Assembly: GCF_023509525.1 (NCBI RefSeq)
Contig: NZ_JAKNCJ010000008.1
Location: 1-64,000 of the forward strand
Direction of reading: 5' to 3'
DNA from: Brachybacterium equifaecis
GTDB taxonomy: Bacteria > Actinomycetota > Actinomycetes > Actinomycetales > Dermabacteraceae
DNA: 64,000 nucleotides
Position 1 is the first letter of the stretch; every line of letters starts with the position of its first letter. The notes under the pieces are model-generated. The model saw nothing but the letters and a program-made list of their open reading frames with translations. It was not told where the DNA came from and did no database searches. Both the position numbers and the translations under genes were made by a program. Below, one piece after another: positions 4,994 through 61,989 of the stretch.

Positions 4994-5365
4994 GCGGACC
5001 AGTCGGCCGGGCAGTCGCGTCCTCGGTGCGCGAGCACCGGGGCCGAGGAAAGTCCGGGCTCCTTCCGACACGGTGGTGGGCAACACCCACCCGGAGCGAT
5101 CCGCGGGACAGTGCCACAGAGAGCAGACCGCCGCCGCTCGGCCTCGCGCCGAGGGGAGGTAAGGGTGAAAGGGTGGTGCAAGAGACCACCGCGGTTCCGG
5201 TGACGGAACCGGCACGGTAAACCCCACCGGGAGCAAGGCCAGACAGGGGGCGCTCGAGGTCGTCGGACCGAGCCCCCGGGTAGGCCGCTGGAGGTCGTCG
5301 GCAACGGCGATCCGAGATGGATGACTGCCGATCACAGAACCCGGCTTACAGGCCGGCTGGTCCGC
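4994..5365 (+). ncRNA. rnpB: RNase P RNA, bacterial type A
   Basis: The catalytic RNA that trims the 5' leader of tRNA precursors. The ends are set by the P1 helix: GCGGACCAG at 4994 pairs with CTGGTCCGC ending at 5365. Inside are the universally conserved blocks GAGGAAAGTCCGGGCTCC near 5045-5062 and, towards the 3' end, AGAACCCGGCTTACAGGCC. The core GGGTGAAAGGGTGGTGCAAG and GGTAAACCCC segments are also present. The length (~372 nt) suits an actinobacterial type A molecule. It is free-standing and followed at once by a strong hairpin shared with the convergent ppgK gene. Confidence 0.95.
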
Positions 5366-40176: not shown

Positions 40177-40265
40177 TGGTGTCCGAAGGGGGACTTGAAC
40201 CCCCACGCCCTAATACGGGCACTAGCACCTCAAGCTAGCGCGTCTACCAATTCCGCCATCCGGAC
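40177..40265 (-). tRNA. tRNA-Leu (anticodon GAG)
   Basis: The cloverleaf on the minus strand starts GTCCGGATGGCGGAATTGG and ends GGGGTTCAAGTCCCC, then TTCGGAC-A-CCA, so the CCA end is encoded. The acceptor stem GTCCGGA/TTCGGAC pairs with one G-T. The anticodon loop CTTGAGGT gives GAG, reading CUC and CUU. The long variable arm (TGCCCGTATTAGGGCG) is the class II type expected for leucine. A single-copy tRNA with no neighbour. Confidence 0.97.
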
Positions 40266-59081: not shown

Positions 59082-59828
59082 ATGACCGAGATGACCCGCA
59101 CCGCCCGCATCAATCCCAGCATCCTGAACTGCGACTTCATGAGGATCGGCGAGGAGCTGGACCGCATCGCGACCGCCGACGCCGTGCACGTCGACGTCAT
59201 GGACGACCATTTCGTGCCGAACCTGACCTTCGGGACCGATATGGTCGCCCAGATCGTCCAGCGCGCGGGCATCCCGATCGACGCGCACCTGATGATCGCC
59301 GACGCCGACCGCACCGCCCCCGCGTACGCCGAGGCCGGCGCCGCGTCGGTCACGTTCCATGCGGAGGCCGCCGCCGCCCCGATCCGGCTCGCCCGGGAGC
59401 TGCGCAGCAAGGGCGCGAAGGCCGGCATCGCCCTGCGCCCCGCCACAGGCGTGGAGCCCCTGCTCGACGTGCTCGGCGAGTTCGACATGCTGCTGATCAT
59501 GACCGTGGAGCCCGGATTCGGCGGGCAGTCCTTCCTCGAGTCGATGCTGCCGAAGATCCGTCGGGCCCGCGCCGCGGTCTCCGCCGAGGATCTCTCCCTC
59601 TCCATCCAGGTGGACGGGGGAGTGAGCCGCGAGACCATCGAGCGCTGCGCCGAGGCGGGGGCCGACGTCTTCGTCGCCGGCTCCGCGATCTACAAGGCGC
59701 CAGACGCCGCCGCGGAGATCGACGCCCTGCGGACCCTGGCCGCCGCGCACGTCCACACCCGGTACGCTCGGGCGGTCACATTCGTGACGTGCTCCGGGGT
59801 CGGTGGAAATCCGAGCCGGCGGTCATAG
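59082..59828 (+). CDS. rpe: ribulose-phosphate 3-epimerase
   Basis: Interconverts ribulose-5-P and xylulose-5-P in the pentose phosphate pathway, 248 residues. TIM barrel: [69 protein letters not shown]. The metal His and Asp are all present. The usual protein ends near AAAHVH; here the frame runs 21 codons further, through a promoter region and into the FMN riboswitch, ending TAG at 59826-59828. The ATG at 59082 follows GAGAGGA; 59091 is an alternative. Confidence 0.9.
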
Positions 59829-59914
59829 TCCGCGACCCGGCCCGCTCGCGCGGGACGGTGGAGCCGGTGGAATTCCGGCACCGACAGTCACAGCCTGGAT
59901 GAGAGGCGCACGTC
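59786..59914 (+). promoter_or_regulatory. FMN riboswitch (RFN element)
   Basis: The conserved core is easy to read: GGGGTCGGTGGAAATCCG (59796-59813), CCGGCGGTCATAGTCCGCGAC (split helices, 59816-59836), GGTGGAATTCCGGCACCGAC (59867-59886) and GTCACAGCCTGGATGAGAGG (59887-59906). The closing helix P1 is perfect: GACGTGC at 59786-59792 with GCACGTC at 59908-59914. It binds flavin mononucleotide and turns the downstream gene off. A TACGCT box at 59763-59768 could be its promoter. The first 43 nt of the aptamer are also translated as the end of rpe. Confidence 0.9.
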
Positions 59915-59978
59915 CTGCATGCACGCGCAGCATGCGCCCGGCCGTCCTGCGGCCCGGTCGCTGCGCGCCCGCATGCCG

Positions 59979-60020
59979 GATCCTTTTCCCCCGGAGCCGC
60001 TGCTCCCGGTCGAAAGGATC
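59979..60020 (+). promoter_or_regulatory. expression-platform hairpin that hides the ribosome site
   Basis: GATCCTTT (59979-59986) can pair with AAAGGATC (60013-60020), which contains the Shine-Dalgarno AAAGGA of the transporter gene. This suggests translational control by the riboswitch. No U-tract is seen that would make it a terminator. Confidence 0.55.
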
Positions 60021-60026
60021 AAGAAC

Positions 60027-60728
60027 ATGGGAATCCTGCAGTGGCTCTTCGACGCTCGCATCGAGCTCGGCAACGGCCAGTACCTCCTGTGGAGGGAAGT
60101 GCTCGGCAATCTCTTCGGACTGCTCAGCGCGCTGGGCGGGATGCGCAGGAAGGTCTGGGCCTGGCCGCTCGGGATCGCCGGCAACCTCCTGCTCCTGACC
60201 GTCTTCCTGGGGGCCGTGTTCGGCACCCCGAACCCCGTCAACCTGCTCGGCCAGGCAGGACGCCAGGTGATGTTCATCCTCACCAGCATCTACGGCTGGT
60301 ACCGCTGGCGGGCAGCCCGCGAGCACGGCGGCACGGCCGTCGAGCCCCGGTGGGCGAGCTGGGGGACGCGCGCGCTGCTGCTCGCCGCGCTCGTCGGCGG
60401 CACCGCTCTGCTCACCCCGATCTTCCAGGCCCTCGGCTCCTACGAGCCCGTGTGGGCTGACGCCTGGATCTTCATGGGCAGCCTGCTCGCCACCTACGGG
60501 ATGGCCAAGGGCTGGGTGGAGTTCTGGCTGATCTGGGTGGCCGTGGACCTCGTCGGCGTGCCCCTGCTGTGGTCGGCCGGCTACTACGCGAGCGCCGTGA
60601 TGTACGTGATCTACGGGGTCTTCACCCTCAGCGGCTTCTTCGTGTGGTGGCGCGTGAGCGCGCGCCAGGGGCGCGAGCGGGTCCTGGTGGAGACGGCTCA
60701 TCTGGATCCGACGGTCACCCGGCGCTGA
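60027..60728 (+). CDS. ribM: PnuC-family vitamin transporter, probably riboflavin (RibM/PnuX)
   Basis: A 233-residue membrane protein of the PnuC family, about seven to eight helices: NLFGLLSALGGMRRKVWAWPLGIAGN, GRQVMFILTSIYGWYRW and WVAVDLVGVPLLW, with the family's conserved YGWYRW and W..D segments. PnuC itself takes up nicotinamide riboside, but in Corynebacterium and Streptomyces the FMN-riboswitch-controlled paralogue RibM (PnuX) takes up riboflavin, so the riboswitch here decides the substrate. ATG 60027 lies 7 nt after AAAGGA. No riboflavin synthesis genes are in the window. Uptake is by facilitated diffusion with intracellular phosphorylation, by analogy. Confidence 0.87.
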   Translation: MGILQWLFDARIELGNGQYLLWREVLGNLFGLLSALGGMRRKVWAWPLGIAGNLLLLTVFLGAVFGTPNPVNLLGQAGRQVMFILTSIYGWYRWRAAREHGGTAVEPRWASWGTRALLLAALVGGTALLTPIFQALGSYEPVWADAWIFMGSLLATYGMAKGWVEFWLIWVAVDLVGVPLLWSAGYYASAVMYVIYGVFTLSGFFVWWRVSARQGRERVLVETAHLDPTVTRR

Positions 60729-60799
60729 GCTGACGGGCCGCACGCCCTGATCCCTCACACCTGCGGCGGACGCGGGTGCACCCGGCTGGGGCGGACGGA

Positions 60800-60805
60800 T
60801 ACCCT
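60800..60805 (+). promoter_or_regulatory. -10 box for leaderless hisE
   Basis: TACCCT ends 6 nt before GTG 60812. Confidence 0.6.
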
Positions 60806-60811
60806 GGCCGG

Positions 60812-61075
60812 GTGAAGGATTTCGAGAAGCTGTTCGCCGAGCTCACCGCCAAGGCCGCCTCCCGCCCCGAGGGCTCCGGCACCGTCGCGGAGCTCGACGC
60901 CGGGGTGCACGCCATCGGCAAGAAGATCGTCGAGGAGGCCGCGGAGGTCTGGATGGCCTGCGAGCACGAGGAGCTGGACGCCGCCGCCGAGGAGATCTCG
61001 CAGCTGCTGTACCACCTCCAGGTGATGATGATCGCGAAGGGCCTGAGCCTGCAGGACGTCTACCGCCACCTGTGA
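60812..61075 (+). CDS. hisE: phosphoribosyl-ATP pyrophosphatase
   Basis: Second step of histidine synthesis, hydrolysing PR-ATP to PR-AMP; 87 residues, the single-domain actinobacterial form separate from HisI. The all-alpha NTP-PPase fold shows [18 protein letters not shown], with the metal-binding E-x-x-E, and [19 protein letters not shown] (E-x-x-x-x-D replaced by S-Q). GTG 60812. It precedes hisG by 56 nt, so the first two enzymes of the pathway are made together. Confidence 0.94.
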
Positions 61076-61131
61076 TCGGCGCGTCCCCGCACGCTCCTCC
61101 CCACCACCGCCCACGAACTGAAGGAAGCCCC

Positions 61132-61989
61132 GTGCTGCGCATCGCCGTCCCCAACAAGGGCGCCCTGGCCGAACCCGCCGCCGATCTTCTCGCCGAGGCG
61201 GGCTACCGCCGTCGCGGATCGATGAAGGAGCTCGTCCTGGTCGACGAGCGCAACGGCGTCGAGCTCTTCTTCCTGCGCCCCCGTGACATCGCGGTCTACG
61301 TCGGATCGGGCACGGTCGACGTCGGCATCACCGGTCAGGACATGCTGCGCGACTCGCGCACCGCCGCGGAGGAGATCCTCGAGCTGGGCTTCGCCCGCTC
61401 GACCTTCCGCTTCGCCGCTCCGGGCACGGGGGAGCGCAGCGTCGCCGATCTCGCCGGCGCCCGCATCGCCACCAGCTACGAGAACCTCGTCGAGGACCAC
61501 CTCGCCGCGCACGGCGTCACTGCGACCGTCGTCCACCTCGACGGGGCCGTGGAGAGCGCGATCCGCCTCGGCGTGGCCGACGTCATCGCGGACGTGGTCG
61601 AGACCGGCTCGACGCTGCGCCAGGCCGGTCTCGCAGTCTTCGGGGAGCCCATCATGACCAGCGAGGCCGTGCTGTTCTCCCGCCCCGGCCTCACGCTCGG
61701 GGAGGACGCCTCGCGCACCCTCGACGTCCTCGTGCGCCGCATCCGCGGCGTGCTGGTCGCACGCCAGTACGTGCTGCTGGACTACGACATCCCCGACGAG
61801 CTGCTGGAGGCGGCGGTCGCCGTGACTCCGGGATTCGAGGCGCCGACGGTGTCCGAGCTGCACCGCGCGGGCTGGTCAGCGGTGCGCGCGATGGTCGCGC
61901 GCGATGACACCAACAGGGTGATGGACGAGCTGTACGAGGTGGGTGCGCGCGCCATCCTCGTCACCTCCATCCAGGCCTGCCGCATCTGA
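61132..61989 (+). CDS. hisG: ATP phosphoribosyltransferase, long form
   Basis: The first and feedback-inhibited step of histidine synthesis, 285 residues. Periplasmic-binding-like catalytic domains with IAVPNKGALAEPAADLL, VGSGTVDVGITGQDML, the PRPP-binding stretch DVIADVVETGSTLRQAGL, and a C-terminal ACT-like domain (~215-285, TPGFEAPTVSELHRAGWSAV, ILVTSIQACRI) that binds histidine. The presence of that domain means HisZ is not required. GTG 61132 is preceded by GAAGGAA. Confidence 0.96.
   Translation: MLRIAVPNKGALAEPAADLLAEAGYRRRGSMKELVLVDERNGVELFFLRPRDIAVYVGSGTVDVGITGQDMLRDSRTAAEEILELGFARSTFRFAAPGTGERSVADLAGARIATSYENLVEDHLAAHGVTATVVHLDGAVESAIRLGVADVIADVVETGSTLRQAGLAVFGEPIMTSEAVLFSRPGLTLGEDASRTLDVLVRRIRGVLVARQYVLLDYDIPDELLEAAVAVTPGFEAPTVSELHRAGWSAVRAMVARDDTNRVMDELYEVGARAILVTSIQACRI

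Follow-up and report, generated by a model that had tools for sequence, protein, structure and literature searches.

An FMN riboswitch predicted to control translation of the putative riboflavin facilitator gene ribM in a Brachybacterium predicted to be a riboflavin auxotroph

In Corynebacterium glutamicum, the riboflavin facilitator RibM is described as energy-independent, with a Km of 11 uM (PMC3239331), and because of these two properties RibM appears weak as the sole supply of an auxotroph. The Streptomyces davawensis cluster is given in the same source as ribBMAH, where ribB denotes riboflavin synthase (PMC3239331). The control of actinobacterial ribM by FMN riboswitches has already been published (PMC4418817, PMC3766115), and RibM and PnuC are reported to share one COG and to be hard to separate by sequence (PMC4418817). 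In Table 2 of the latter source, as counted from its flattened columns, ribM is marked only alongside the biosynthetic pathway. The Corynebacteriaceae are said to retain the riboflavin pathway (PMC3766115), and a survey of human gut genomes is quoted as placing facilitator-class riboflavin transporters or PnuX only in prototrophs of its set (PMC6593275). Among the matches listed by a search of non-subscription literature, no title or abstract opening deals with rib genes in Brachybacterium.

The locus described here lies in the window, a stretch of 64,000 nucleotides (positions 1 to 64,000 of contig NZ_JAKNCJ010000008.1, forward strand) of Brachybacterium equifaecis, whose genome (GCF_023509525.1, here G000) comprises 3.08 Mb in 23 contigs and is 99.56% complete. 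In this organism, an FMN riboswitch very probably controls the translation of the riboflavin facilitator gene ribM in a Brachybacterium that is unable to make riboflavin. The aptamer (RFN element; 59786..59914, + strand) had been recognised in a preliminary description by its core and a perfect P1 helix. The riboswitch reading depended on a match to RF00050, and a covariance search found one that spans model positions 1-138 of 138 with 84.0 bits (E 1.3e-17), above the gathering score of 66.2; P1, formed by GACGUGC (59786..59792, + strand) and GCACGUC (59908-59914), indeed consists of seven Watson-Crick pairs out of seven. The PnuC-family gene placed 112 nt downstream of the aptamer was also confirmed: the ATG at 60027 opens ribM (pnuX; 60027..60728, + strand; PF04973, 156 bits), which encodes a predicted riboflavin facilitator of 233 amino acids, named from the protein tree and the gene order. 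RF00050 and PF04973 are each matched once in the genome, the former in front of ribM. The aptamer is located in the leader of a predicted riboflavin transport gene, and in order relatives it precedes ribM-ribD-ribE-ribBA-ribH. Riboswitch and ribM occur together in 23 of the 34 Brachybacterium ribM loci, where the riboswitch of G011 is counted from its RF00050 match and its leader sequence, and in both loci of other Dermabacteraceae; since the pairing recurs in this way, it is not due to chance. The remaining 11 Brachybacterium loci have no riboswitch, and the gap between rpe and ribM is 16-58 nt in ten of them and 112 nt in G005. ribM was unmatched in 4/38 genus genomes, namely G008 and three fragmented ones.

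Upstream of ribM lies rpe, which encodes ribulose-phosphate 3-epimerase (59082..59828, + strand; TIGR01163, 254.3 bits with a cut-off of 212.6, searched as 59082-59768). Its frame ends with the stop TAG at 59826-59828 and overlaps the FMN aptamer by 43 nt; in the 22 other riboswitch-bearing Brachybacterium loci, the rpe frame closes before the aptamer, at a distance of roughly 27 nt or more. On a read-through transcript, ribosomes ending rpe might disturb P1 and P2. In B. nesterenkovii (G013, L165 7593-8977), about 1.4 kb of extra DNA separates rpe from the riboswitch. Elsewhere in the window, an RNase P class A RNA and one tRNA, both ordinary, are found at 4999-5364 and 40180-40265.

Downstream of ribM follow hisE (phosphoribosyl-ATP diphosphatase; 60812..61075, + strand; NF001610, 153.7 bits with a cut-off of 104, searched as 60776-61075) and hisG (ATP phosphoribosyltransferase; 61132..61989, + strand; TIGR00070, 175.7 bits with a cut-off of 75.75, searched as 61072-61989), whose start codons at 60812 and 61132 are our own choice. 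Loci of Psychromicrobium, Rothia, Kocuria, Tersicoccus and Paenarthrobacter have the order rpe-[riboswitch]-ribM-ribD-ribE-ribBA-ribH-hisE, and by this synteny hisE marks the right border of a missing ribDEBAH block. The order rpe-ribM-hisE-hisG is present in all 34 Brachybacterium ribM loci and in both loci of other Dermabacteraceae, and no rib genes were found between ribM and hisE in any of these, the gap being 30-240 nt. The window locus is best explained as a remnant of the longer operon after loss of its biosynthetic block. In three Microbacteriaceae loci (L092, L096 and L113), ribM has no rib gene within 4 kb; that of L113 stands behind an FMN riboswitch, and L092 and L096 have none at the gathering score.

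Brachybacterium prototrophs carry ribDEBAH away from ribM and in three phylogenetically distinct versions. In a tree of 29 such operons, with that of G001 joined from two contigs, 22 belong to group A, six to group B and one, from G034, stands alone as C; group A includes one genome of another family, and C groups with Micrococcaceae and two order relatives. The AU test rejects a single clade of all 29 operons (p-AU 2e-105) and likewise rejects A+B (1e-5) and B+C (6e-4), two sets that were defined after viewing the tree; it does not reject a clade of group A minus the outsider (p-AU 0.46). The flanks were compared after exclusion of the fragments G001 and G006: all 20 compared A operons have a common downstream neighbour, which we take to be gyrB from its translation in G002, and 19 have a common upstream neighbour, while four of the six B operons share a downstream and four of the six an upstream neighbour, both unlike those of A. 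The names recF, dciA, gyrB and gyrA, as well as that of an NDH-2-like neighbour of operon B, are likewise our assignments from translations. In G000, G027 and G032, recF-dciA-gyrB is contiguous and contains no rib genes. Among 16 genomes, the operon stands beside gyrB in two, dciA adjoins gyrB without the operon in nine, and neither is the case within 1.5 kb in five. G027 and G032 are placed beside operon-A species at a fork that the tree leaves open, and their gyrB site was either emptied or never filled.

As far as the operon tree and the flanks can tell, the three versions would fit repeated acquisition after an early loss. The Brachybacterium ancestor may already have been auxotrophic and dependent on RibM once ribDEBAH had gone from the stretch separating ribM and hisE, and prototrophy may have been regained at least three times via complete riboswitch-ribDEBAH operons that came separately from outside and settled at other sites; this history is tentative and, in our judgement, slightly more likely to be wrong than right. 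One operon would then have entered beside gyrB, and the window's species and others would never have regained prototrophy or would have lost it again, a proposal to which we give a little less than even weight. The replacement of a resident operon by another one is compatible with the same trees, and so are later losses. If repeated acquisition is true, a vitamin pathway re-evolved repeatedly, as opposed to the usual one-way loss, and a low-affinity facilitator served as the bridge.

The leader between the aptamer and ribM can be drawn with two competing elements. The antisequestor hairpin consists of a 5' strand, GUCCUGCAUGC (59912..59922, + strand), whose foot shares GUC with the 3' strand of P1, and a 3' strand, GCAUGCCGGAU (59971..59981, + strand), whose foot shares GAU with the sequestor. 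The sequestor is formed by 9 bp between its 5' strand, GAUCCUUUU (59979..59987, + strand), and its 3' strand, GAAAGGAUC (60012..60020, + strand), which contains the Shine-Dalgarno sequence AAAGGA (60013-60018). In the minimum free energy (MFE) structure of the leader (59784-60040, -125.4 kcal/mol), P1 and the sequestor form alongside the upper hairpin. Forcing the hairpin including its foot costs 3.1 kcal/mol and rules out the drawn sequestor, and the unpaired probability of the six Shine-Dalgarno bases rises from at most 0.01 to 0.17-0.47; in the MFE structure with ten extra coding bases, the Shine-Dalgarno sequence is paired differently. According to this model, at low FMN, GUC at the foot of P1 would pair into the foot of the antisequestor hairpin, which would hold GGAU and thereby leave the Shine-Dalgarno sequence free. 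At high FMN, binding of the ligand would close P1, and the released GAUCCUUUU would pair with GAAAGGAUC, thereby stopping the synthesis of RibM. RibM would admit riboflavin, which RibF would trap as FMN and FAD.

The layout downstream of the aptamer is largely kept across 23 Brachybacterium leaders. In their alignment, 87.0% of the cells of the antisequestor hairpin are paired, compared with 80.7% in shuffles and 23-37% when the structure is slid, in a test biased in favour of the hairpin because its structure was derived from one of the 23 aligned sequences. The covariation score of the hairpin is 0.182 versus 0.090 in shuffles and was matched by 0/500 of these; three pairs are altered on both sides, a number equalled by 37/500 shuffles. 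The covarying pairs belong to the upper hairpin, a part that the MFE structure with P1 and sequestor likewise contains, and the two counted foot pairs are invariant; these invariant, competing pairs give no covariation evidence either way. No covariation above shuffles was found for the sequestor in the MAFFT alignment (85.0% of cells paired versus 84.7%). In G058, in G010 and in the group of G026, G030 and G017, pairing near the Shine-Dalgarno sequence is kept with other letters, as seen by eye and missed by the MAFFT alignment. Taken together, the leader suggests translational control that is switched off at high FMN as the best reading. Riboswitches with Rho-dependent control are known, and the leader is long and G+C-rich, which would suit a switch that acts on transcription through an intrinsic terminator or Rho access; however, 0 sites resembling intrinsic terminators were found in 59700-60100, where 0.1 were expected, and the conserved part of the expression platform contains the complement of the Shine-Dalgarno sequence, which makes transcriptional control unlikely.

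The preliminary description had expected annotation pipelines to call the gene product PnuC, a nicotinamide riboside transporter, and had itself read it as a riboflavin transporter. The NCBI PnuC model TIGR01528 does pass on the ribM product (59.3 bits with a cut-off of 42.45), and the second claim gains support from a RibM-like clade apart from PnuC: in a protein tree of 26 rows, which has some long branches and is built on rows other than the characterised RibM sequences, a branch with support of 100/99 separates 22 RibM-like rows from four annotated PnuC rows. The RibM-like clade includes proteins encoded within riboflavin operons. L111, whose stretch contains a stop, was excluded from the protein alignment, and the set A2 comprises 39 of 81 sequences (the window and 80 loci). 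RibM of the window shares 67-84% identity with 16 RibM-like proteins from Brachybacterium, Dermabacteraceae (a single genome outside Brachybacterium), Micrococcaceae, Microbacteriaceae and the order relative G040 (67%), and 51-56% with the products of ribM genes flanked by ribE and ribBA in three further order relatives. A Streptomyces copy that has neither rib genes nor a riboswitch in its vicinity reaches 39%, the product of Nonomuraea ribM, which lies in ribD-ribE-ribM-ribBA-ribH behind an RF00050 match, reaches 35%, and the four annotated pnuC products reach 25.5-31%. No solved relative of RibM was found in the PDB by sequence and profile searches at E 1 and E 10.

A true PnuC for nicotinamide riboside, with the FMN riboswitch as a leftover or co-opted element, would agree with the TIGR01528 score and with the lack of a NadA match in G000; since NadA is absent, the organism must take in an NAD precursor, and metabolism alone is compatible with a nicotinamide riboside role. 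However, NadR (TIGR01526) is unmatched in 37 of the 38 genus genomes, including G000, and the exception, G010, has one weak match that fails the cut-off. Furthermore, the protein falls into the RibM-like clade and not with PnuC, and the aptamer covers the whole RF00050 model. ribM is retained in 21/21 genus genomes with NadA, and in G008 NadA and a ribM match are both lacking; therefore, ribM does not track the need for NAD. A PnuC function is thus very unlikely, and kinship and gene order support the assignment of the window gene as a putative RibM rather than PnuC.

The predicted inability to make riboflavin rests on three synthesis families. In G000, no match was found for ribH (lumazine synthase, PF00885), which is matched in 48/58 searched genomes, or for ribE (riboflavin synthase, PF00677) and ribB (DHBP synthase, PF00926), each matched in 29/38 genus genomes. 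RibF (PF06574) is matched in 37/38 genus genomes, among them G000. The same three families are jointly absent, at 99% completeness, from G008, G013 (B. nesterenkovii), G027 (B. epidermidis), G031 and G032, and also from G005, which is 84% complete. Neither ribE nor ribB is matched in G025 and G059, two assemblies of more than 500 contigs each; a ribH fragment is present in G025, and the ribH search covered genomes other than G059. The least probable alternative, a normal prototroph that has an additional, regulated transporter and whose rib genes were missed through an assembly gap or strong divergence, could draw on the 23 contigs and on ribA and ribD having had no search of their own, but it is at odds with the 99.56% completeness, with the simultaneous lack of three families that the same searches find in most genomes and with the repetition of this joint absence in five other nearly complete genomes. 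The window's organism is hence predicted to be a riboflavin auxotroph whose sole FMN riboswitch serves ribM, and riboflavin uptake is probably essential because the three searched synthesis families are lacking.

A tree built from rsmB, rpe, hisE and hisG spreads the six good genomes without rib genes over four places, and a single clade is rejected for them (p-AU 1e-54); the five of them that have ribM span three lineages. The state counts exclude G005, and G025 is scored as type A from its ribH fragment alone. A link between rib loss and the presence of the riboswitch on ribM (5/6 rib-less genomes with ribM versus 18/28 others) was rejected as too weak and phylogenetically dependent. NadA is absent from 7/7 genomes without ribH, ribE and ribB and present in 21/31 other genus genomes; the capacities to make vitamin B2 and NAD may be lost jointly. 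Matches in two pieces, possibly due to assembly errors, were seen for ribM of G022 (L194) and for ribE, hisG, nadA and ribF of G023 (L183, L065).

In G008, which has no rib genes and no ribM match, hisE directly follows rpe. Its only riboswitch precedes genes for a BPD_transp_1 permease and an NMT1/THI5-like binding protein (L149 6453-8630), and a permease together with an NMT1-type binding protein is given as the make-up of RibXY (PMC3766115). Judging by these domains, one importer family appears to stand in place of another in G008, a RibXY-like one for RibM, which speaks in favour of the riboflavin reading of the window locus.

Annotation based on the NCBI models would make the window gene a carrier of nicotinamide riboside, and a metabolic model that took over this label would overlook a vitamin that the cell is predicted to need. 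B. nesterenkovii and B. epidermidis are named strains in which to ask whether RibM alone feeds an auxotroph. The genus resembles a natural experiment in which a vitamin pathway is lost and regained, one riboswitch class accompanying both halves. The switch and the importer are of known kinds; an auxotroph resting on a facilitator, together with the operon history, is what the locus adds, and this is modestly surprising. It is unusual how the pathway was lost at this locus and turns up at other genomic sites in related species.

RibM/PnuX of C. glutamicum and S. davawensis is likewise an actinobacterial member of the PnuC family under an FMN riboswitch, as far as described (PMC3239331, PMC4418817), and there, as in close relatives of the window locus, it is linked to rib genes. 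The order ribE-ribM-ribBA-ribH, found for example in Nonomuraea, matches ribBMAH of S. davawensis (PMC3239331). In S. davawensis, the pathway genes lie in the same cluster, whereas in the window's organism the searched pathway genes are absent and the switch has ribM as its only gene. PnuC shares PF04973 with RibM, and the window protein passes TIGR01528, but its identity to PnuC is only 25.5-31%, a branch supported at 100/99 sets the two apart and NadR is unmatched in G000. RibXY, described as an ABC importer without ATPase (PMC3766115, PMC4418817), resembles RibM as an FMN-riboswitch importer able to replace missing synthesis; it belongs to a different protein family, and RibXY-like genes occur here in one relative, G008, outside the window. 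A precedent is the acI-A4 strain IMCC26103, which is presented as predicted to be auxotrophic for riboflavin, with its single FMN riboswitch in front of a pnuC-like gene that is proposed to encode PnuX (PMC5301498). That case is one freshwater genome, whereas Brachybacterium offers five good genomes in three lineages, in which the history of the locus is visible.
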